From the IMG/VR virus record IMGVR_UViG_3300047459_000093, positions 1-27,569 of that record: a stretch of 27,569 nt of DNA; one strand, 5' to 3'. The stretch's first letter is position 1; each line of letters begins with the position of its first letter. Position numbers and translations under genes: made by a program. The notes beneath the pieces were generated by a model. The model did no database searches. It saw nothing but the letters and a program-made list of their open reading frames with translations, and was not told the origin of the DNA. Positions 10,822-24,296 of this stretch are shown one piece after another. This stretch comes from a virus.

Positions 10822-11421
10822 TTAGTCAGTTTCTCTTATTTCTATCAATTCATTTTTACTCATAAGTGTCCCATTATACCATGTCTGAATATCATTTGAA
10901 AAGGTCACATCAAAACTCTCAGGGACATCGTTGAATCGTAATCCAATCTGACCAGTCAATTTACCACTAGGGTCATACGAATCATAATCTAGATATAGTC
11001 TGTCAAAACTAATATAGTCTTTCCAATATTCAGCGATATCAAAGGTTTTCTCAAAGTCAATCTTACCATCTTTGTCTATGACTTGATAATAAACTAAGCG
11101 ACCAAATCGTTTATCTTCAATCACTTCATCACCAATCAGAGATGCCCATATATCTTTGGGTTGTAACAATCCTTCCGAAACAATCAGACGGATATCATTG
11201 AACAATGGACTATCGTTGATTACTCTCATTGCTTCTGCATGAAGATACAGATTACGAGCGATACGCCTACGATTAAACTCAAACTCGATGTGATTAAAAG
11301 GTGTTCGGTCACCATATGCACCCAAGAACTTTGCAATCGTGATGCCTGGCCCTAACTTAGTGGCAGAACTGATTGATACTTGATTCTCTGGGTTGTATAC
11401 TGGGTCTGCTAATATAATCAT
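10822..11421 (-). CDS. Unknown structural-cluster protein between spike and gp25
   Basis: This 199-residue protein is not recognised as any named T4 gene. Its ATG overlaps the stop codon of the beta-helix spike gene (ATGA), and it ends 20 nt before gp25, so it is co-expressed with baseplate genes. It has a basic helical part (FNRRRIARNLYLHAEAMRV near 49-67), then an acidic, aromatic region (EYWKDYISFDRLYLDYDSYD near 131-150) and a beta-rich C-terminus. No signal peptide, membrane segment or enzymatic motif was seen. It is similar in size to T4 gp53, but the gp53 family match is clearly the gene at 17355-18113, so this is a separate protein. A baseplate or hub accessory role is inferred from position only. 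Confidence 0.6.
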   Translation of the reverse strand: MIILADPVYNPENQVSISSATKLGPGITIAKFLGAYGDRTPFNHIEFEFNRRRIARNLYLHAEAMRVINDSPLFNDIRLIVSEGLLQPKDIWASLIGDEVIEDKRFGRLVYYQVIDKDGKIDFEKTFDIAEYWKDYISFDRLYLDYDSYDPSGKLTGQIGLRFNDVPESFDVTFSNDIQTWYNGTLMSKNELIEIRETD

Positions 11422-12887
11422 GGTCTAAATCTCTTTCCTCTGTTTTCAAGCGCATTCCCGATAGGTTGATAACCAAATCTTGATGATGCAGACTTTTTCA
11501 CAGTTCTACCAATTGCAGGCGGTGTTGGTATTTTGTATTCAGGGTTCAACAAACCATCCGCAACCAGAATACTGCCTACTGCATCACCCACATACGAACT
11601 CTTTAGTGCAGAACGAACTTCTGCAATGGTCGGTATTTTATAGAAGTATCCTTCATATTTCTTTTCAAGTAATAGACTTGTTTTGAGTTTATCCTCTGCA
11701 TCAATGACAACTGTTCGTATTGCATACGACCCATTGAGTGAATGGTCAACCACAAGGTCTGGAGTAATAGGTGCATTCTGGCCAGAAATATCTTCTTGTG
11801 ATAATGAGTGTAATGTTGCAGTATCACCAACTGTGCTTCCTGATGTTGCCGCTTCTCCATATGATTGTGAGTGTGTAAGGTCTGATACTTCAGCAAATGC
11901 CGCTTTATCAGCATTGACAGAACGAATCGCTTCGGTTGCGACACCCTTGAATGTTCCCCAGAAGATTGCGTTTGAACCAGTATCACCTGAAGCAACGCCT
12001 TCAACCTCACCCTTACTACCATGATAAGATTTACCTGTGTAGTCAACCTCTTTACCACCGATGAGTCCCTTATTACCAAAGACAGTGATTTGTTTCGCCC
12101 CTGTGATATTGGAAACCTTCGAAGTCACTGCAAACTGTTCCTTACCAGACACAAAGATTTTATCCTCGCCAGCAATGTCGATGTTACCCTCAACGAGATT
12201 TGACTGATTTCCCTTGACAATCTGATTGTTGTCTGCTAACATAATGTCAGTATGTGTTCCGACTGTCTTGGTCGTTCTGGTTTGTTTGGTGGTATATGTT
12301 GAGTTTCGAACAACAGTAGTTCTATGATTCTCTTGAATATCTTCTACCATATTACCCGCAACATTGACATTATAGTTACCACCTACATCGACATTGAAGT
12401 CACCCGTTACCTTGAGATTTAGATTACCATTGTAGATGAGATTACCCTCACCCTCAACGATAACTGTTTGGTCACCGCCCGTAACTTCCACTTTGTTGTT
12501 TGTTGATGTGATAACAACAGTTCCATCTGCCCGCATCTCAACACCAGAACCCTTGCGGTGTTTGATTAAAATACGTTCACCGCCTGGCGTATCATCATAC
12601 TCAACAATATGACCCGATGATGTCTCGTTCACATCATTGAATGGATACTGTGACGGTCTCTGGGGAACAATGTTTAATGATACACCAATGTCACCACCAC
12701 CTGTCGCAAGTTTATTCACTTGCGTTCCAACCGATGCCTTATTGAGACTTGGCCCGTAATGGTAATCTACTTTAGGAAACTGACCTGACGGGTCTTGCAT
12801 TCCATTTTCAGGAACACCGACAGTCTCTTCTTGACCCTCGCCAAGTTTCGCTTCTCTCTGTGATATGTTGTCTAATTTAGTTGTCAT
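11418..12887 (-). CDS. gp5C-like: Baseplate spike protein, gp5 C-terminal beta-helix-like
   Basis: This 489-residue protein matches the C-terminal needle half of T4 gp5. Residues 91-126 have the block found at the start of gp5C/VgrG needles (GHIVEYDDTPGGERILI, then HRKGSGVEM and DGTVV). From about 133 to 190 it has 8-residue repeats of the VxGxxxxx type (for example LKVTGDFN, VDVGGNYN, VNVAGNMV), which build a trimeric beta-prism in T4. Further weaker repeats continue to about residue 300. The C-terminal 150 residues are a different, unassigned domain. There is no OB fold and no lysozyme domain; these are in the two upstream genes. It starts at a TAATG overlap with the amidase gene. It is inferred to form the cell-puncturing needle at the centre of the baseplate. 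Confidence 0.82.
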   Translation of the reverse strand: MTTKLDNISQREAKLGEGQEETVGVPENGMQDPSGQFPKVDYHYGPSLNKASVGTQVNKLATGGGDIGVSLNIVPQRPSQYPFNDVNETSSGHIVEYDDTPGGERILIKHRKGSGVEMRADGTVVITSTNNKVEVTGGDQTVIVEGEGNLIYNGNLNLKVTGDFNVDVGGNYNVNVAGNMVEDIQENHRTTVVRNSTYTTKQTRTTKTVGTHTDIMLADNNQIVKGNQSNLVEGNIDIAGEDKIFVSGKEQFAVTSKVSNITGAKQITVFGNKGLIGGKEVDYTGKSYHGSKGEVEGVASGDTGSNAIFWGTFKGVATEAIRSVNADKAAFAEVSDLTHSQSYGEAATSGSTVGDTATLHSLSQEDISGQNAPITPDLVVDHSLNGSYAIRTVVIDAEDKLKTSLLLEKKYEGYFYKIPTIAEVRSALKSSYVGDAVGSILVADGLLNPEYKIPTPPAIGRTVKKSASSRFGYQPIGNALENRGKRFRP

Positions 12888-15154
12888 TAGATATCATCCA
12901 AACTTATATCATCGCTTGCTAAAACGTCGCCAAATGTTCTTACTTCAGTTGAAGGTTCATCAGGTTCAGGTTCGTAATCAGTCAAGTCTTCAGCTTCTAA
13001 CCACGCACCATCTTCTTCGTCCCACTCAAAATAGTGTCGAGTTCCATCTGGGTCTGTGCGGGGAATATCTTGACCGTCTGACCCCTTCGCTGGTGGAGCG
13101 GGTCTAGAAGTGTCTTGTAGTATCGCTTTATCCTGTGGTGCTGGGTCTCCGTTAGGTTCAATTACTTCTGTAGTTCTAACCGCAGAACCACTGATAGACT
13201 CGTCACCACTTTCTAACAAAGATGTCACATCATTAAACACAATCGTTCTACCTATAGATTCTAGGTCTATCGACTTCACAACAAAATTAGGTTCTATTGA
13301 TTGACTATTTAGTGTATCACCCACGATATTTTTCTTACGGAAGATTGCTTCAACAAAAGAAATTACATCAAAGTAAGGGTCAAGTTCATTTACATCAACA
13401 TCACTATGACCAAATACCTGACCGCCTGGGAACTGTCGATAAAAAGCACCTAAGAATTGTTCGAGTGTGGTATATTGTGCTCGAGTAAAAGAACCGGCAC
13501 TTCTTCGAGCATCTTCCGAATTCACGGGTGAATCGATACCACCAACCATCACAATACCGATTGAGTTCTTGTCATGACCATTTGTAGGTGCATGTTCACC
13601 CTGTCTGTCCACAGGGCGACCACGTTGTAATCTACCATCTCGTCTTATCACATAATGAAATCCAATACCATCATGACCCAGTTCTTTGTGTATATTATTG
13701 ATTTCGATAGAACCAATGTTTTTGTTTGTAAAGGTTTCAGTTGCGTGAACGATTACTTCCGTAATCACCCGATTAATATTTGACATCTCTGTGTCTAGTT
13801 CTTCTACAGAAGAGATGTAGGTAAAAACATCATCAGAACTTGACCGTCCTGACCATTTCTGGTTATTATCACTAATTGTCGGCGCATCACCAAACATATC
13901 CGCATCAACAACAAATGTGCCAGCGATTGTCGTGTCTATCTTATCAAGACCTGTTTCGACTGTTGCAACTTCATTGTTATAATCACTTATTTCTTTTTCA
14001 GGAACACCCTGTTTTCTTGCTTCTTCTTCGACTTTATTTTGTAATTCAATAGTTGTGCTAGCGGATGTCGAAGCAGATATCTGTTTCATACGAGGAGTTA
14101 CATTGGATGATTTAGAAACAACTCTCTTTACCGCAGATGTTTTTTCTTTTGGACTTTCTGCGGTTAGTTCTTTGAATGTCTGTTTATATTCATTTCCGCT
14201 GAAAGATATACCACCTGGCACAACATTAGCAACAGATGCTTTTGCATTACCGCCGATTGTCTCACCAAAATTTTGAAGAAATCCACTTTGAAGTCCATTA
14301 TCAAATTTTTTATTTGTTTTACCAACAAAACTTGTCACAGCACTACCAAAATCACTGACCGCAGAGGTGACATTACTGAGTCCTGATTTTATAACATTAC
14401 CAACACTCTTAAAATTACTAAGAATACTTTTAGATTGAGGTGCCTTTGCAGTTAAAGCAGATATTCCTGTCGAATTAGATACATTATCTTTTATATCAGA
14501 CAGTTTACCTGAAATATTACCCACAGGAGTAACATCTTTTACAGTGTCTTTGAGTGAACCAAAGTCAACACTTGGAATATTCATATTTGCTTGTTCAGTT
14601 GAGTCTGCTATAGTGCTTGCAAATGATTGAACATCAAGTGCCGCCGCATTCTTCTTACTCTTTGCAACTTCGACTGATGATGCAATACTTTGGGGGCCAG
14701 TTGCACCAACCACCTCTATTGCCGATGATGCAGTATCTCCCGCTGTCTGTGCAGGCAAACCAGTCATTGAACCTAATGCAGACTTGGGTGTTTTAGTTCC
14801 CGTCAGTTTACCAACACTATCAGTCAGTTTACCTACTGAAGTGTTGAGTGTTGTTTCACTTGCTGTAATTGTATCTTTACCTAGACTCTTGACACCACCC
14901 AAAACTTCACCATCTTTACGACCAAGTTTGGTTGCATTCTTGACAAGAGTATCTTCTTGTGCTTTAGTTGCTTTCGCTGAAAGACTTGACGGACTTGTAT
15001 CTTCCGTAACCTCTACCCTTTGAGTCAAAGTATATGAAAATCCTTCTGCGTCAACACCCCTTGTTGTAACCACTTTATACTTTGAACTAGAAGATTTATT
15101 CGTCTTTGCCTCGTTCTTGAGCGCAGTGTTAATATCAGACTTATCTAATGACAT
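12887..15154 (-). CDS. Baseplate-associated N-acetylmuramoyl-L-alanine amidase
   Basis: This 755-residue protein has a long Ser/Thr/Lys-rich N-terminal region (about 1-440) followed by a T7-lysozyme-like amidase domain at about 460-610. The domain shows VIVHATETF with His470, GFHYVIRRDG with the usual Tyr, HDKNSIGIVMVGG, and GHSDVD with His583, followed by DPYFD with Asp592. His470, His583 and Asp592 are candidate zinc ligands; T7 lysozyme uses two His and a Cys. Such enzymes cut the bond between MurNAc and the L-Ala of peptidoglycan. The C-terminal 140 residues are acidic and Pro-rich. The gene lies between the gp5 OB protein and the spike, so it probably supplies the wall-degrading function that T4 places inside gp5. 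An AGGA-type Shine-Dalgarno sequence precedes the ATG. Confidence 0.82.
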   Translation of the reverse strand: MSLDKSDINTALKNEAKTNKSSSSKYKVVTTRGVDAEGFSYTLTQRVEVTEDTSPSSLSAKATKAQEDTLVKNATKLGRKDGEVLGGVKSLGKDTITASETTLNTSVGKLTDSVGKLTGTKTPKSALGSMTGLPAQTAGDTASSAIEVVGATGPQSIASSVEVAKSKKNAAALDVQSFASTIADSTEQANMNIPSVDFGSLKDTVKDVTPVGNISGKLSDIKDNVSNSTGISALTAKAPQSKSILSNFKSVGNVIKSGLSNVTSAVSDFGSAVTSFVGKTNKKFDNGLQSGFLQNFGETIGGNAKASVANVVPGGISFSGNEYKQTFKELTAESPKEKTSAVKRVVSKSSNVTPRMKQISASTSASTTIELQNKVEEEARKQGVPEKEISDYNNEVATVETGLDKIDTTIAGTFVVDADMFGDAPTISDNNQKWSGRSSSDDVFTYISSVEELDTEMSNINRVITEVIVHATETFTNKNIGSIEINNIHKELGHDGIGFHYVIRRDGRLQRGRPVDRQGEHAPTNGHDKNSIGIVMVGGIDSPVNSEDARRSAGSFTRAQYTTLEQFLGAFYRQFPGGQVFGHSDVDVNELDPYFDVISFVEAIFRKKNIVGDTLNSQSIEPNFVVKSIDLESIGRTIVFNDVTSLLESGDESISGSAVRTTEVIEPNGDPAPQDKAILQDTSRPAPPAKGSDGQDIPRTDPDGTRHYFEWDEEDGAWLEAEDLTDYEPEPDEPSTEVRTFGDVLASDDISLDDI

Positions 15155-15156
15155 GA

Positions 15157-16023
15157 TTAAATCCTATCCTTCAATCTTCGAGCAGCAAGTTCAATCTGTT
15201 TGATAAATTTTGCATTAACTTTTTTTGAATAAAAACGAGCAAATATTTCTACAGAACCATTTATTCCTTCTATGTTTTGAGTATCCAACAGTCTAATGTT
15301 TGCTTGACTTTCTGTAGTTCTTAATTCGTATATAACAAATTTCAACTGTTCACTGAATCTCAAATAGTTATTTGAGAATGCTTTCATTTGAGCCCATCGT
15401 TTTTCTTCCCATGAGTTAATACCATTCCCTCCTTTTGGAATCTGATTTGTTCTCATATTAGAAATCTTTTGTAATGTTGCCGTCATACCTATCGCTTGAT
15501 TTAATGTATATCCAACGTTCAAGAAGAAACTTAATGCGAATCTTTCTCTATTGATTACCACATGCCTCTGTGGGTCACCAAAGTTATCATCTTGAATATC
15601 TTTATCTGGTCTCACAAAATCAACAACCTTACCAAAAAAACTTCTAGGGTTTTGTATTCCCACATCTTCGTCTGGTTGTCCTAGTTGTATCTCTGATGCC
15701 ATTTCGATGTGTGGTAAAGAACCTAATATGATAGGTGTCTGCGAGTTAACACCATCAACAAAGAATCCAAATACCAGCGCACTGGGTTGAAGTCTAGGAA
15801 TACGTCCTAAACCAGAAACTCCACCCTCTGTGGTTGGCAGAACACACTGGGCCCACGGTAGGTCACTTTCAGGTATATCCACCTGAGAGTGACTATGAAG
15901 ACCATGCACACGAATCTTGATACGACCTTCATAACCAACAGGCGGTTGATTACTAATAACCGTTGCAATAAACCAACGACTATTATCACCATAGTATTCA
16001 GATGGGATTGGCGTAGGTGTCAT
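15157..16023 (-). CDS. gp5: Baseplate hub OB-fold protein, gp5 N-terminal-like
   Basis: This 288-residue protein has the OB fold shared by T4 gp5 and VgrG at about residues 15-110: RWFIATVIS, then GRIKIRVHGLH, ESDLPWAQCVLP, and FGFFVDGVNSQTPIILGSLPH. In T4 this domain sits between the gp27 hub and the lysozyme. The rest (about 130-288) is helical and basic, without the Glu-Asp-Thr catalytic set of T4-type lysozyme. The ATG overlaps the stop codon of the gp27-like gene (ATGA), and the amidase follows after a 2-nt gap. It probably anchors the spike complex to the hub. Confidence 0.82.
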   Translation of the reverse strand: MTPTPIPSEYYGDNSRWFIATVISNQPPVGYEGRIKIRVHGLHSHSQVDIPESDLPWAQCVLPTTEGGVSGLGRIPRLQPSALVFGFFVDGVNSQTPIILGSLPHIEMASEIQLGQPDEDVGIQNPRSFFGKVVDFVRPDKDIQDDNFGDPQRHVVINRERFALSFFLNVGYTLNQAIGMTATLQKISNMRTNQIPKGGNGINSWEEKRWAQMKAFSNNYLRFSEQLKFVIYELRTTESQANIRLLDTQNIEGINGSVEIFARFYSKKVNAKFIKQIELAARRLKDRI

Positions 16024-19101: not shown

Positions 19102-19464
19102 CTATTTATAAGATTTTTCGTAATATATACCCGCAGACTCCAACAATTCTAACGCAAATTCTTGTTTCTTATCTAACTCTTGATAATAGACATGAGTTAT
19201 TCCTGACTGAATTATCAATTTCGCACAAGACACACACGGAGAAAGGGTTATATAAATCTTATGTCCCTGTGTCGCAATACCTAATCTGGCTGATTCGGAT
19301 ATTATTCTAGCTTCTGCGTGTTGTGTCGTATCAGGATGTTCTCTTTCAGTTAGGTGTGTATTGTGTGAAGAGACACCATTAGTGAGATATGCGCCAACCT
19401 GATATCTTTTGTTTTTGGCCAGTTCTTTTTGTTCGATTGCGAAATTCATGAACGTATCGGTCAT
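19102..19464 (-). CDS. cd: Deoxycytidylate (dCMP) deaminase-like protein
   Basis: This 120-residue protein is a zinc-dependent cytidine/deoxycytidylate deaminase-fold enzyme. His49-Ala-Glu51 supplies one zinc ligand and the proton-shuttling Glu; Pro76-Cys77-Val-Ser-Cys80 supplies the other two ligands. The RYQVGAYL block at 20-27 is typical of dCMP deaminases, which convert dCMP to dUMP for thymidylate synthesis. T4 Cd has 193 residues, so this is a short form with no room for the T4-type insertion. The ATG at 19464 has GAGG 9 nt upstream; a second ATG 5 codons later is possible. The first 86 nt overlap the end of the TOPRIM gene in another frame, so the two are probably co-translated. dCMP is the likely substrate but this is not proven. 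Confidence 0.8.
   Translation of the reverse strand: MTDTFMNFAIEQKELAKNKRYQVGAYLTNGVSSHNTHLTEREHPDTTQHAEARIISESARLGIATQGHKIYITLSPCVSCAKLIIQSGITHVYYQELDKKQEFALELLESAGIYYEKSYK
19103..19110 (-). promoter_or_regulatory. Late promoter box TATAAATA for gp48 block
   Basis: An exact TATAAATA on the minus strand overlaps the TAG stop codon of the deaminase gene (19102-19104). Predicted initiation is near 19097, leaving about 30 nt before the gp48 ATG. The box is followed by GAAAC, the same five bases found after the box at 20448. Confidence 0.72.
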
Positions 19465-19957
19465 ATCCGATTTCCTCTATTAATTCATAATTATCATTAC
19501 AGTTTTTTATATCAAAGGTAAATGATTTATCACCCACAGTTTCCAAAATCCAATTTGTCTGCCTATATCCAGTAAAGTCATTATCAAACGCAGTAATGAT
19601 TTTATCAAATGATTTAATATAATCTAGTGATTCTTCTAACATCATAATAGGAAAATTACTATGACATGTTGTTCCTACAATTGGTGGAATCATATTGGTT
19701 GTTCTAAGAAACGCTTCTGCAACAACGAGAACCTCAATTTCACCCTCAACAATTATCAGTTCTTCACCACCCCTATCGAATATACTACTTCCATATAATT
19801 GTAGTATTCTGTCTGCCTTGTGTCGCCATACTTTAGTATCATCTGATAAGTTTCTCTCTTGGGTAAAACCTTCTCCTATATAAGGCATATATAACTTATG
19901 AGAATCTGTATACGCACCATACTTGTCTAGAACTGTTTGAGATATTCCTCTAATCAT
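19379..19957 (-). CDS. Stand-alone TOPRIM-domain protein, primase-like
   Basis: Starting at the ATG at 19957 this is a 192-residue protein. It begins like the RNA-polymerase part of T7 gp4-type primases (MIRGISQTVLDKYG), has a WRHKADRILQLYG segment at 44-56, and then a TOPRIM core: IIVEGEIE with Glu71, and ITAFDNDFTG with Asp125 and Asp127, the metal-binding set. The zinc-binding domain and helicase domain of full-length primase-helicases are absent. A longer form from 20026 would overlap gp4 and is less likely. T4 uses separate gp61 and gp41, so this is a different primase lineage. It may be part of a split primase or a separate nuclease or regulatory protein. The ATG has no Shine-Dalgarno sequence and follows a late box by 5 nt. 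Confidence 0.72.
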   Translation of the reverse strand: MIRGISQTVLDKYGAYTDSHKLYMPYIGEGFTQERNLSDDTKVWRHKADRILQLYGSSIFDRGGEELIIVEGEIEVLVVAEAFLRTTNMIPPIVGTTCHSNFPIMMLEESLDYIKSFDKIITAFDNDFTGYRQTNWILETVGDKSFTFDIKNCNDNYELIEEIGYDRYVHEFRNRTKRTGQKQKISGWRISH

Positions 19958-19962
19958 TTTTT

Positions 19963-19970
19963 TATTTATA
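19963..19970 (-). promoter_or_regulatory. Late promoter box TATAAATA, 5 nt before TOPRIM ATG
   Basis: An exact TATAAATA on the minus strand is followed by AAAAA and the ATG at 19957. It shares a base with the gp4 start codon on the other strand, so the two divergent genes are separated by only 12 nt. With T4 spacing the transcript would begin at the TOPRIM start codon. Confidence 0.65.
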
Positions 19971-20446
19971 TGGCATATTCTGGTAGATATCGGGTAAAAA
20001 ACCCAACGAAATATAAAGGTGACCACACCAATGTGGTCTACCGTTCCCTATGGGAGAAACATGCATTCAAGTGGTGTGATGATAATCCTAGTGTGGTTGA
20101 ATGGTCATCCGAAGAAGTTGTAATACAATACTTATATGAAGTCGATAAGAGGTGGCATCGTTACTTTGTAGACCTAAAACTCAAGATGGACAATGGAAAG
20201 ACCTATCTGATTGAGATAAAACCAGATGCACAGACTCAACCCCCTACAGGTTCAAGGAGAACAAAAAGGTTTTTGAGTGAAAGTTTTACTTATGTCAAGA
20301 ACATGAACAAATGGCAAGCAGCAAATGAGTTCGCAAAAGATAGAGGTTGGCACTTCCAGATATGGACGGAGAAGAACGAACCATTGAAGAGTCTTATTCC
20401 CAAATCAACAAAACCATTAAAACCTTTCCAAAAACGTAAAAAATAA
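19970..20446 (+). CDS. gp4: Head completion protein gp4 (PD-(D/E)XK nuclease fold)
   Basis: Starting at the ATG at 19970 this is a 158-residue protein, close to T4 gp4 (150). The MAYSGRYRVKNPTKYKG start and YRSLWEKHAFKWCD block (24-37) are characteristic, so the longer upstream start at 19937 is rejected. Asp68 and Glu82-Ile-Lys84 form a D...ExK set in RYFVDLKLK and TYLIEIKP, consistent with a PD-(D/E)XK nuclease core. In T4, gp4 acts with gp50 after DNA packaging so that the tail can join the head. No Shine-Dalgarno sequence precedes the ATG and no plus-strand late promoter was seen upstream, so how it is expressed is unclear. It is the first gene of the rightward tail cluster. Confidence 0.88.
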   Translation: MAYSGRYRVKNPTKYKGDHTNVVYRSLWEKHAFKWCDDNPSVVEWSSEEVVIQYLYEVDKRWHRYFVDLKLKMDNGKTYLIEIKPDAQTQPPTGSRRTKRFLSESFTYVKNMNKWQAANEFAKDRGWHFQIWTEKNEPLKSLIPKSTKPLKPFQKRKK

Positions 20447-20460: not shown

Positions 20461-21054
20461 ATGAGTAATATCTTCAACAGACTGGAACTACAGGCATTCC
20501 GCGCTGGGGTGACGCCACGCACCAAAGAAAGTCGTGATTGGTTTCGGAAGAAAGCATCGAATCTTCGTTCAATCAACCGTAATGAGTTGATGAAAGAAGA
20601 ACCGCTCAAACGAAGAGCGCAACGTGGCGTGGTCGGTTCGATGCAGATGTTCTTCTATGACCCGAAGACCAAAGACAAACTACCATATTATGATGTATTT
20701 CCATTGGTTGTCGTAGTCGGGCCTGCGGAAGGTGGATTCTATGGATTGAACCTTCATTATCTCCCACCAATTCTTCGTGCAAAGATGTTAGACTCATTAA
20801 TGGAAACCGCGACTAGTAAGACATCTGATGATGCAAAGTTCGCAATAACATATAGTAAATTACAAAGTATTTCAAAGCTGAGATATTATAAACCATGTTT
20901 CAAACACTACTTGAATAAACACGTTTCGAGTAAATTTGCAGAAGTCCCTGCACCCGAATGGGAGATTGCAACCTTTCTTCCAACCGCAGACTTCCGTAAG
21001 TCAAACTCACAAAAAGTATTCTACGATTCAAGACAGATGATAGGTAAAGGTTAA
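20461..21054 (+). CDS. Conserved T4-like morphogenesis protein, possibly gp2 DNA end protector
   Basis: This 197-residue protein is of a type that is well conserved in marine T4-like phages, often annotated as the gp2 DNA end protector. Features are FNRLELQAFRAGVTPRTKES near 5-24, a central DKLPYYDVFPLVVVVGPAEG segment near 72-91, FYGLNLHYLPP near 93-103, and KLRYYKPCFKHYL near 140-152. It is basic overall, and no catalytic motif was seen. T4 gp2 has 274 residues, so the assignment is tentative; the position beside gp4 supports it. The next gene starts within its stop codon (TAATG). Its own start is the best example of the late box-5 nt-ATG layout. Confidence 0.6.
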   Translation: MSNIFNRLELQAFRAGVTPRTKESRDWFRKKASNLRSINRNELMKEEPLKRRAQRGVVGSMQMFFYDPKTKDKLPYYDVFPLVVVVGPAEGGFYGLNLHYLPPILRAKMLDSLMETATSKTSDDAKFAITYSKLQSISKLRYYKPCFKHYLNKHVSSKFAEVPAPEWEIATFLPTADFRKSNSQKVFYDSRQMIGKG

Positions 21055-21755
21055 TGACAACTCGTATCGATGATTTCAAATCACAGGTAGGTAAAGCTGG
21101 TGGTTTTGCAATGGGAAATCTTTATAAGATTTTCCTTCCGCCTATCTCTGGTGAAGCAAGAGAGATGAATTTGTTGTGTAGAGCCGCATCAATGCCTGGC
21201 AGACAAGTCCTCTCTACAGAGAAACAGATTGGTTTACAGACAACCAAAGTTGCATATGGATATGCAGTGGATGATATATCTCTATCCTTTCATGTCATGA
21301 ATGACTATAAAGTCAGAACATACTTTGAGGCATGGCAAAATCTTGCAGTAAATCAAGAGACACTAGAAGTAGGATACTACAATGACTATACACACCCTGT
21401 CGTGATTCAACAGATAAAAAAGGGTGTCGCATTTCCATTGAAAAAGAAAAAGATTTTTGATTCAGGTAAACTACCAAGTTCTATCGCGAATCGTTTACCT
21501 CGTATTGGGCCTCTTGATTTGGCGCAAGGCGAGATTGACTTAAATCTACTTACAGGTGATAAGATTGCTTATACTTGTATACTAGATAAAGCATACCCAA
21601 CTACATTGAATGCAATTGAGTTGAGTGATGATGGCCAGAACCTTCAACTAGACGTTCAGTTATCTTATAAGAACTGGAGAAGTGAAGGCGGAGATGCCGG
21701 CGGCGGTGGATTTATCGAAGGTCTTGCTGGTGAATTGATTAGGAAATTCTTATAA
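21054..21755 (+). CDS. gp54: Tail-tube-family protein, probable baseplate tube initiator gp54
   Basis: This 233-residue protein has the tail-tube (gp19) family pattern: an N-terminal RIDDFKSQVGKAGGFAMGNLY, then LLCRAASMPGRQV near 40-52, a DDISLSFHVMNDYKVRTYFEAW segment near 73-94 (its core is the common ND-x-x-x-R-x-x-F-x-x-W motif), and a C-terminal beta region (LQLDVQLSYKNW). The C-terminal tail is Gly-rich. In T4 both gp19 and gp54 belong to this fold; position next to gp26 and gp29, rather than beside a sheath gene, favours gp54, which starts tube polymerisation on gp48. The ATG overlaps the previous stop codon. It could instead be a second tube protein. Confidence 0.68.
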   Translation: MTTRIDDFKSQVGKAGGFAMGNLYKIFLPPISGEAREMNLLCRAASMPGRQVLSTEKQIGLQTTKVAYGYAVDDISLSFHVMNDYKVRTYFEAWQNLAVNQETLEVGYYNDYTHPVVIQQIKKGVAFPLKKKKIFDSGKLPSSIANRLPRIGPLDLAQGEIDLNLLTGDKIAYTCILDKAYPTTLNAIELSDDGQNLQLDVQLSYKNWRSEGGDAGGGGFIEGLAGELIRKFL

Positions 21756-21769
21756 TTGTGGAGTAAATA

Positions 21770-22477
21770 ATGGCGTTACCTAAACTAAACGACAATCTAA
21801 AATACGAGATGGTGATTCCATCAACCGATAAGATTGTCACATTTAGACCATACTTGGTCAAAGAGGAGAAAGTTCTTCTCTCTGCTTTTGAGTCGCAAGA
21901 CCAAAAACAGGCAATGAGAGCGATGATGGATACTGTTATCGCATGTGTGAATGATGATATTAAATCAACAGAACTAACAACATTTGATGTTGAGTATATG
22001 TTCACTCAAATTCGTAGTAAGTCTGTTGGTGAGACATCTACACTGATAATGAAGTGTGATGCAATAGACTGTGATAAGTCTACCGAAGTTTTGGTTGATT
22101 TAACTACGGTCAAGATTGAGAAGACCGATGTAGACCCCGTGATTCAGTTGACAGATGATATCTATGTTGAGATGAGATATCCAACCTATGATGGTTTTGT
22201 AAAAAACTTCAAAGAGGGTATCAGTGAGGCAGAGTTTGGATTTCAAATGTTAGAAGATTGTGTTGTAGCAATTCTGACCGATGATGAAAAACATTTGGCC
22301 AATGAAGTAAGTAAAAAAGAATTGAATGATTTTATTGAATCCATGACCAACACTCAGTTCGAAAAGATTGGCAAATTTCTTCAGACTGTTCCCGTCATGA
22401 GAAAAGAGGTTGAGTTCACCTGTGAGTGTGGTCATCAGAATAAAGTAACACTGGAGGGTCTTCAAGATTTTTTTTAG
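21770..22477 (+). CDS. gp26: Baseplate hub/tail assembly protein gp26
   Basis: This 235-residue protein matches the T4-like baseplate hub assembly family to which T4 gp26 (208 residues) belongs. It shows the MALPKLNDNLKYEMVIPST start, RPYLVKEEKVLLSAFESQD near 26-44, a central Cys pair (KCDAIDC near 99-105) and a C-terminal Cys pair (FTCECGHQ), which together could bind zinc, and ends in LEGLQDFF before TAG. GGAG lies 6 nt before the ATG. The last codons overlap a strong -1 frameshift signal that would add 63 residues. The location directly before the tape measure gene is where other tailed phages encode tail assembly chaperones with the same kind of frameshift. Confidence 0.85.
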   Translation: MALPKLNDNLKYEMVIPSTDKIVTFRPYLVKEEKVLLSAFESQDQKQAMRAMMDTVIACVNDDIKSTELTTFDVEYMFTQIRSKSVGETSTLIMKCDAIDCDKSTEVLVDLTTVKIEKTDVDPVIQLTDDIYVEMRYPTYDGFVKNFKEGISEAEFGFQMLEDCVVAILTDDEKHLANEVSKKELNDFIESMTNTQFEKIGKFLQTVPVMRKEVEFTCECGHQNKVTLEGLQDFF

Positions 22478-22492
22478 TATGCCTCTCGCATG
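22453..22492 (+). other. Candidate programmed -1 frameshift signal
   Basis: Three elements line up at the 3' end of gp26. An internal Shine-Dalgarno-like GGAGGG lies at 22453-22458. A slippery T-TTT-TTT heptamer in the gp26 frame lies at 22468-22474, directly before the TAG stop at 22475. A small hairpin (UAUGC paired with GCAUG, including a G-U pair, loop CUCUC) lies at 22478-22492. The spacing resembles the E. coli dnaX signal. Slipping back one base puts ribosomes in the frame that is open to 22665. Confidence 0.65.
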
Positions 22493-22665
22493 ATAATTTG
22501 GTCAATCATTTCAAGACCAACTTCGCGCTGATGCAACATTTTAATTATTCATTACATGATATTGAACATATGATGCCGTGGGAGAGGGAGATTTATCTAG
22601 TATTACTGGAAGAGTGGTTAAAAGAACAAGAAGAAAAAATGAAAGAAAATAATAACGGGTTCTAA
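22474..22665 (+). CDS. Downstream -1 frame of gp26, tail assembly chaperone-like extension
   Basis: This 63-codon frame is open from the slippery site to TAA at 22663-22665. It has no start codon with a Shine-Dalgarno sequence; the first in-frame ATG, at 22531, would leave only 44 codons. The predicted peptide is structured: HFKTNFALMQHFNYSLHDIE, then MMPWEREIYLVLLEEWLKEQ. The PWEREIY-type motif is typical of small proteins encoded beside gp26 in T4-like phages (sometimes labelled gp51). The full frameshift product would have 298 residues. The tape measure ATG follows 2 nt after its stop. The reading as a frameshift extension is inferred; a separate small gene is the alternative. Confidence 0.62.
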   Translation, partial: LVCLSHDNLVNHFKTNFALMQHFNYSLHDIEHMMPWEREIYLVLLEEWLKEQEEKMKENNNGF

Positions 22666-22667
22666 AA

Positions 22668-24296
22668 ATGGCAGAAGTAACCATAGCACACCTCACCGAA
22701 GCGGTTCAGGAAGAAGGCGCAGAAAGTGAAAAGAGAGATAAAAAACAGATTGAGCAACTCGCCACTCTGAATAAATCTTTTGGACAATTTTTTCAGGCAC
22801 AAAAATCTAGTAAACTCGACAAACTCGAAGAAGCACGAGAGAAGGTATCTGGCCCCAAACCCACTAAAGAGAACTTTAGTGATGCGGCCGCCGGTGCGAA
22901 AGATGCATTGGGGTTTGGTCTTCTAGGTTTTCTGGGTATTGTTACTGCAGCAATCTCTGGTCTTGCAACAGGTATCGCGGTAGGTCTAGGTAAATACCTT
23001 GCTGCACTTGGTAGAACCTTTGATAATTTGACTGGTAATAGAATTGGTAAGGCGATAACAAACCTTACACGACAAATTAGAGGTGGTGTGTTTAGACTCA
23101 TAGGTCTGTTACCAAATGGAAAGTTAGACCCATCTGCATCGAAGTTCGCAAGATTCTTGAGAGCGGTAAGAAGTCCGTTTGTTAGTGCCACGGGGTTTTT
23201 CAAGACTATTCAAGGTGGTATGTTTCGATTATTTGGACTAGGTATTGATGGTAAACCAGTAACCACTACATCAAACTTTGTCAAGTCAATACTTAAATTT
23301 GGTAATCTCTTCAAACCAATTACAAGTGTATTCGCTGATAGTTTCAAAGAAGTTGGTTCTGCACTGAAAGGGATTGGTAATACTATTAAGAGTGGTGTCA
23401 ATTCTACCACTCAAGTTTTCCAGACTATTGGAAAAACTTTTAGTGCATTGCGTGGCGCATTGTCTCCGATATTTACAGTATTCAAGACACTGGGTCGAGT
23501 AATCTTTGCACCTCTTACTTTAATAATGAGTATTATCGATGGTATCAAGGGTGCAATTTCAGGGTATCAACAAGAAGGGGTTTTAGGTGGTATTCTTGGT
23601 GCAATCGGCGGTGTTCTATCTGGACTGATTGGTATGCCTCTTGACCTAGTAAAATCTGCGATTGGATTTATTGCGGGTAAACTTGGATTTGAGAATGTCC
23701 AAGCGGCATTATCTGGTTTCAGTTTTGCTGATATGATTAAAGATACATTCATGGGTGTTGCCCGTGTATTTAATGATGTTCTTAAAAATCTATTCAGTGG
23801 ATTTGAGGATGGGTTTAGTGCTGGTCTGTCACAGATGTTTAAGTCAATGATGGTTTATGTGAAACGACTTCTATTATTTGGGCCAGCAGTTTTGGCGGGT
23901 GGTGCTGCAGCATTGGGCGCTGTTCTGCCAGGCGGCGATAGTCCAATCGAAGCATTCCAGAAAACATTTAGTAAAGTATTGAAAACGGGTGAAGGTAGTG
24001 CTGAAACAACATTACCTACTGAACAAGGGGAGACAGGCGAAGAAGAACCTGAACCTCCAATCGCTGCGCCACAAAATGTTGAGAGGGTTGTCGCGACACA
24101 AGAACAGGCAAGAATAAGACAAGCGAACATTGAAAGAATGCGGGCGAATAAAGAGGCAAATGATGCTAAAAAGGCTGCAATGGCAGTAAACACTGTAAAC
24201 GCACCGACAACTACTAATATGAGTAGTAATACCGCAGTCTTTACTGACCCGACTCCCGCAACTGATGACCTAGACAGAGAAGCGGCATCTTTCTAA
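22668..24296 (+). CDS. gp29: Tail tape measure protein gp29
   Basis: This 542-residue protein has the composition of a short tape measure: a charged helical N-terminus (about 1-75), then a Gly/Ala-rich hydrophobic stretch (about 80-110: FGLLGFLGIVTAAISGLATG), repeated basic amphipathic segments (about 130-270), a second hydrophobic stretch (about 290-345), and a Glu/Pro-rich, disordered C-terminus. T4 gp29 has 590 residues. With the usual rule of about 0.15 nm per residue the tail tube would be near 80 nm long. It follows gp26 and its frameshift frame by 2 nt, which is the usual order for tail assembly chaperone and tape measure. The Shine-Dalgarno sequence is weak, so translation may be coupled to the frameshift product. 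Confidence 0.82.
   Translation: MAEVTIAHLTEAVQEEGAESEKRDKKQIEQLATLNKSFGQFFQAQKSSKLDKLEEAREKVSGPKPTKENFSDAAAGAKDALGFGLLGFLGIVTAAISGLATGIAVGLGKYLAALGRTFDNLTGNRIGKAITNLTRQIRGGVFRLIGLLPNGKLDPSASKFARFLRAVRSPFVSATGFFKTIQGGMFRLFGLGIDGKPVTTTSNFVKSILKFGNLFKPITSVFADSFKEVGSALKGIGNTIKSGVNSTTQVFQTIGKTFSALRGALSPIFTVFKTLGRVIFAPLTLIMSIIDGIKGAISGYQQEGVLGGILGAIGGVLSGLIGMPLDLVKSAIGFIAGKLGFENVQAALSGFSFADMIKDTFMGVARVFNDVLKNLFSGFEDGFSAGLSQMFKSMMVYVKRLLLFGPAVLAGGAAALGAVLPGGDSPIEAFQKTFSKVLKTGEGSAETTLPTEQGETGEEEPEPPIAAPQNVERVVATQEQARIRQANIERMRANKEANDAKKAAMAVNTVNAPTTTNMSSNTAVFTDPTPATDDLDREAASF

Follow-up and report, generated by a model that had tools for sequence, protein, structure and literature searches.

A conserved -1 frameshift signal at the gp26/gp51 junction of T4-like phages, predicted to yield a short and a long tail assembly chaperone

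Comparative analysis of the gp26 region in a DNA stretch of 27,569 nucleotides from a marine T4-like virus (hereafter the window, meaning the whole stretch analyzed) indicates that this locus very probably makes a short and a long tail assembly chaperone by programmed -1 ribosomal frameshifting, a reading to which we assign a probability of about 0.88. The signal, its phase, the protein encoded in the -1 frame and the constraint at the RNA level are all conserved among related sequences, and it is from this conservation that we infer the frameshifting itself and its rate. In the mechanism we propose, two proteins would arise from one start. Most ribosomes would read gp26 to its TAG stop and release a 235-aa protein, TAC-N, and a minority would slip back by one base on T TTT TTT, pass the stop and add the 63-aa TAC-C, giving a 298-aa TAC-NC. 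Slippage would be promoted by 16S rRNA pairing with an internal GGAGGG and by an RNA structure that follows shortly after the heptamer. The features of the locus, with the evidence for each, are as follows:

21054-21755, plus strand: tail tube protein, the upstream neighbor (phrog_45 tail tube, E 3.3e-31)
21770-22477, plus strand: gp26, the putative short form TAC-N, in frame 0 with stop TAG (PF12322, phrog_150, AlphaFold2 model)
22453-22458, plus strand: internal Shine-Dalgarno-like GGAGGG (anti-SD duplex energy; excess of GAG and of Leu codons ending in G)
22468-22474, plus strand: slippery heptamer T TTT TTT (in-register T TTT TTN in 291/292 loci)
22475-22477, plus strand: frame-0 stop TAG, directly 3' of the heptamer (from the sequence; TAG or TAA in close relatives)
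22474-22665, plus strand: gp51, the putative TAC-C domain, in the -1 frame, 63 codons plus stop (phrog_634, phrog_150, pN/pS)
21770-22665, plus strand: predicted long form TAC-NC, 298 aa, via -1 frameshifting (conservation and the domain order of T4 gp51)
22478-22492, plus strand: small hairpin named in the initial annotation (-3.3 kcal/mol; not consistently present in relatives)
22498-22520, plus strand: downstream stem-loop TTGGTC/GACCAA (core of a predicted structure at 22488-22528, -9.9 kcal/mol)
22668-24296, plus strand: tape measure protein, 542 aa (phrog_1272 tail length tape measure, E 1.3e-9, plus others)

Direct reading of the sequence bore out the layout given in the initial annotation for gp26, the GGAGGG, the spacing, the heptamer, the -1 frame and the gap before the next gene. 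The 3' end of gp26 (235 aa) reads GAT TTT TTT TAG, and the heptamer, located 9 nt downstream of GGAGGG, is contained in a run of eight Ts (22468-22475) that is unique in the window, counting both strands. The -1 frame is open for 63 codons (22474-22662) and ends with a stop at 22663-22665, leaving a gap of 2 nt to the tape measure ATG at 22668, and the predicted fusion is 235 + 63 = 298 aa long. The gene order of tail tube, gp26, -1 frame and tape measure places the pair in the position of a G/GT-type module.

Other parts of the window hold unusual arrangements of their own. On the minus strand at 11418-16023, a gp5-like hub/tail lysozyme seems to be split into three adjacent genes, with a gp5-like N-terminal part at 16023-15157 (minus strand), a C-terminal needle part at 12887-11418 (minus strand) and, at 15154-12887 (minus strand), a 755-aa protein that has an amidase domain and no gp5 match; the lysozyme appears to have given way to an amidase encoded by a separate gene. 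A lone primase/helicase fragment, corresponding to phrog_239 positions 114-298 of 801, is found at 19379-20026 (minus strand), where its 5' end overlaps a gp4-like head closure gene (19937-20446, plus strand) and its 3' end a deaminase-like ORF (19102-19464).

The junction was compared across ~290 loci gathered from viral contigs and phage records. Wherever both frames could be placed, gp51 occupied the -1 frame relative to gp26 (292/292 loci) and never frame 0 or +1, and an in-register T TTT TTN heptamer, which has the dnaX-type form X XXY YYZ, was present in 291 of the 292; several loci share contigs or are near-identical, and thus these counts are not counts of independent events. The locus that lacks the heptamer, L279, has a stop inside its gp26 itself, and its disrupted gp26 frame is probably a sequence error. 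The slippery run and the -1 frame, whose presence across relatives the initial annotation had put forward as a check, are both kept in all intact survey relatives, the -1 frame with its phase and its gp51 domain. Among the survey loci all four bases occur at the last position of the heptamer, and the distance from there to the stop ranges from 0 to 27 nt; with the last base and the stop distance both variable, it is the heptamer that stands out as the conserved element. Close relatives keep GGAGGG or a near form of it, the T run and the stop at a protein divergence to about 70%. Other Phe-Phe pairs in gp26 are encoded with T6 in register in only 2 of 72 cases, compared with every one at the slip site; background codon use is TTT for 70% of Phe, GAT for 76% of Asp and AAT for 68% of Asn.

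The heptamer and the -1 phase are found in isolates of Kyanoviridae, Schizotequatrovirus, Ceceduovirus, Emdodecavirus, Menderavirus and Pootjesviridae. Isolates outside the survey that agree are a Vibrio Schizotequatrovirus, Sinorhizobium phiN3, a Methylophilales phage, Rhizobium RL38J1, Ochrobactrum OC, S-CRM01, Stenotrophomonas Yut2, Vibrio Bakedbeans, Agrobacterium OLIVR5, Aeromonas CC2 and Rhizobium RHph_I1_18. The exception is Vibrio phage K413 (L315, 1887-2090), in which a gp51-like frame lies in the -1 phase of gp26 with no canonical heptamer, the end of gp26 reading TCA CTT TTC AAG TAA. In the record of Rhizobium phage RL38J1 (L308), an annotated repeat at 1659-1978 covers the gp26/gp51 junction, and the ends of that record thus cut through the chaperone locus.

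Homopolymers are prone to error, and the initial annotation had named an assembly error in the run of eight Ts as a refuting finding; on such a reading, an assembly or sequencing error splits one gene into two. We consider the chance of this negligible: the run recurs in many independent contigs, the same junction is present in contigs from many samples, with either TAG or TAA, divergent phages and isolates carry T6C, T6A and T6G versions, and an in-frame gp26-gp51 fusion was found in no locus. From these comparisons we conclude that the slip-site signal is real, neither chance nor an assembly error.

For the analyses of start sites, codon choice and RNA structure, we clustered the loci at 80% nucleotide identity in the region of the slip site, which gave 130 clusters and lessened the redundancy noted above; the input was restricted to loci with T6N, nearly the whole set. 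Many annotations assume a start for gp51 near the gp26 stop, as S-PM2 and P-RSM4 do with annotated ATG codons, and under this assumption gp51 in the window would be an independent or translationally coupled gene beginning at TTG 22498. The TTG is present, but it has no SD and the conserved residues LSHD precede it. Moreover, in 51 of the 130 clusters the -1 frame contains no ATG, GTG or TTG in its first 16 codons and the upstream overlap, a start with an SD-like site upstream was found in only 2 of the 130, and the -1 phase is fixed in all loci, so that an independently started gp51 is very improbable. Homologues carrying gp51 with its own start had been named in advance as a finding that would count against frameshifting; the clusters revealed no conserved independent start. 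Conservation of the gp51 peptide in the 130 clusters extends from the very first codons past the slip site, with no indels, and comparison of the window with eight relatives gave pN/pS values of 0.09-0.29 for the -1 frame and at least 0.56 for the other frames. These values point to strong purifying selection on the -1 frame.

Public annotations of cyanophages and relatives either treat gp51 as a separate baseplate hub assembly catalyst or omit it, a common misannotation that the present analysis corrects. The cyanophage records S-WAM2 and ACG-2014b, for example, leave gp51 unannotated though the -1 frame is open. As a rule for annotation, T TTT TTN at the end of gp26 followed by an open -1 frame would denote a tail chaperone, and this rule applies to one of the most abundant virus groups of the ocean.

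Evidence for stimulators was found on both sides of the heptamer. The GGAGGG of the window forms an anti-SD duplex of -9.8 kcal/mol, which is equalled or beaten by 0.24% of background sites. Across the 130 clusters, anti-SD pairing at this site has a mean energy of -6.5 kcal/mol versus -1.5 kcal/mol elsewhere in gp26, and energies of -5 or below are seen in 75% of clusters versus 11% of background, which places an SD-like stimulator upstream of the slip site. Codon choice follows the same pattern, with GAG accounting for 49 of 73 Glu codons at the SD site (27% expected, p 5e-13) and G-ending codons for 62 of 110 Leu (25% expected, p 4e-12), p-values that assume an independence of clusters that does not hold. 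These excesses indicate that the internal Shine-Dalgarno is selected at the codon level. The element is missing or weak in some relatives (Vibrio, phiN3); the internal SD, whose conservation the initial annotation had proposed to test, is widespread and under selection without being universal.

Downstream of the heptamer, folding energies were compared with those of synonymous-codon recodings of the same locus. The mean structure z for the 130 clusters, in a 54-nt stretch starting 5 nt 3' of the heptamer, is -1.48 (s.e. 0.13), compared with about -0.2 along gp26 and values close to zero farther into gp51, and the synonymous-codon-controlled value for the window itself is -2.98. These data indicate that the downstream structure exceeds what the protein sequence explains. 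Many cyanophages have a stem of ~11 bp that starts a few nt 3' of the heptamer. The main stem of the window (22498-22503 paired with 22515-22520) starts 23 nt 3' of the heptamer, which is farther than the 5-9 nt of dnaX-type stems. The stem registers vary by lineage, with at least three that alternate, and that of the window is present in only part of the family. Because the register differs between lineages, the evidence supports structure rather than one conserved helix; indeed, a single conserved hairpin register was considered and rejected when mutual information over the 130 clusters gave no clean helix. The hairpin that the initial annotation placed 3 nt after the heptamer does exist, but as a stimulator it is weak and lost in relatives, and it is not the conserved element. 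With the stimulators conserved, the predicted frameshift is directly testable by reporters in E. coli.

Transcriptional slippage on T8, adding a U to some mRNAs, could also generate part or all of the long form, and eight-T runs are indeed present in the window and in 57 of the 130 clusters. However, 61 of the 130 have only six Ts with the heptamer kept, a run that is probably too short for efficient polymerase slippage, and transcriptional slippage is thus disfavored as the general mechanism. In addition, selection on the internal SD and on the downstream structure points to the ribosome. We therefore regard polymerase slippage as a quite unlikely source of the long form, one that may contribute in the T8 run of the window, and we retain ribosomal frameshifting as the preferred reading.

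The protein families and structural model of the two frames bear on what the products would do. gp26 matches Pfam T4_baseplate (PF12322, E 1.9e-53) and phrog_150 (E 2.4e-57), the latter match covering positions up to 232, and for the -1 frame the matches are to phrog_634, a baseplate hub assembly catalyst family (E 1.5e-25), and to phrog_150 positions 236-281; the published family profile thus already spans the junction. The two frames therefore show N- and C-domain homology to the T4-like TAC family (PF12322/phrog_150 and phrog_634). A match of gp51 to Stealth_CR2 (Pfam E 3e-4; 19/34 family members) is below the curated cut-off and was taken as unrelated. The AlphaFold2 model of gp26, made from an alignment in which rows from annotated records were left out, has a pLDDT of 93.9. 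Both of its top PDB matches are chains of the HK97 tail assembly chaperone (2OB9); the match is weak and leads in rank only (prob 0.80-0.89, E 0.3-0.4, TMq 0.20-0.25), and as such this similarity of a predicted fold supports, but does not prove, a chaperone identity for gp26. Among viral predicted structures, gp26 homologues were matched. Sequence searches of the PDB with the gp26 and gp51 profiles gave no match, nor did a search of NCBIfam.

In the lambda G/GT frameshift system, the short form coats the tape measure and the C-domain of the long form recruits tube subunits. By analogy, TAC-N would coat the tape measure protein encoded by the adjacent gene, and the C-domain of TAC-NC would recruit tail tube subunits. 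The parallel with G/GT had been drawn in the initial annotation, and it gains support from the gene order, the architecture of T4 gp51 and the weak HK97 chaperone fold match. Should frameshifting be real, gp26 and the long form could nevertheless be baseplate hub assembly factors, in keeping with their T4 annotation as hub and hub assembly catalyst. We think this unlikely, as the gp26/-1 frame pair sits directly between the tail tube and tape measure genes and combines a short/long architecture with a fold match to HK97 gp13. Further, the T4 protein that determines tail length, gp29, itself carries a hub subunit annotation, and a tape measure chaperone would thus also give a hub phenotype. We infer, then, chaperone action on the tape measure rather than hub assembly.

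Comparison with T4 reveals a different genetic arrangement of the same domains. In T4, genes 26 and 51 are separate, divergently transcribed and full-length, with no frameshift, in contrast to the frameshift pair predicted in the window, and the G/GT-like pairing proposed for this phage consequently does not extend to T4. T4 gp26 is a relative of T4 gp51, which consists of a full PF12322 domain (residues 1-201) and a C-domain that aligns with the -1 frame of the window at 34% over 44 residues; in architecture, the fusion predicted in the window thus corresponds to T4 gp51 and TAC-N to T4 gp26. The study by Vladimirov, Gautam and Davidson (2022, Virology 566:9-15) reportedly found frameshifting conserved in several T4-like groups, with T4 using genes 26 and 51. 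The T4-like TAC-N/TAC-NC proteins of that work belong to the same families (26/51) as those of the window. That 26/51 are chaperones and that T4-like groups use frameshifting is therefore prior art, and the core idea, for which the initial annotation left open whether it had been described in this phage group, was already published (Vladimirov et al. 2022). In the Adele paper (PMC12846349), the poly-T slippery sequences of TAC-N genes in T4-like phages are credited to Vladimirov et al. (2022). Our literature search on frameshifting in cyanophage gp26/gp51 found nothing beyond that study and papers citing it. As far as could be checked, what is new here is the added phage, the wide range of loci surveyed and the support for an internal SD and a downstream structure.

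The locus resembles lambda G/GT (Levin 1993; Xu 2004) in its order, V-G-T-H there corresponding to tail tube, short form, overlapping-frame C-domain and tape measure, and in a -1 frameshift, predicted here, close to where the short form ends; it differs in its slippery sequence and in that the stop directly follows the heptamer. With E. coli dnaX it shares an upstream SD, a slippery heptamer and a downstream RNA structure. However, the dnaX heptamer is A-type whereas that of the window is T-type, the structure in the window is weaker and farther away, and the frameshift product of dnaX is shorter than the in-frame product, the reverse of the window. We are evenly divided on a broader proposal: that the ancestral chaperone of most non-Tevenvirinae T4-like phages uses a three-part dnaX-type signal, composed of an internal SD, T TTT TTN and a downstream RNA structure that shifts register from lineage to lineage, and that this ancestral form gave rise to the two-gene arrangement of T4 through a duplication in which the frameshift was lost.
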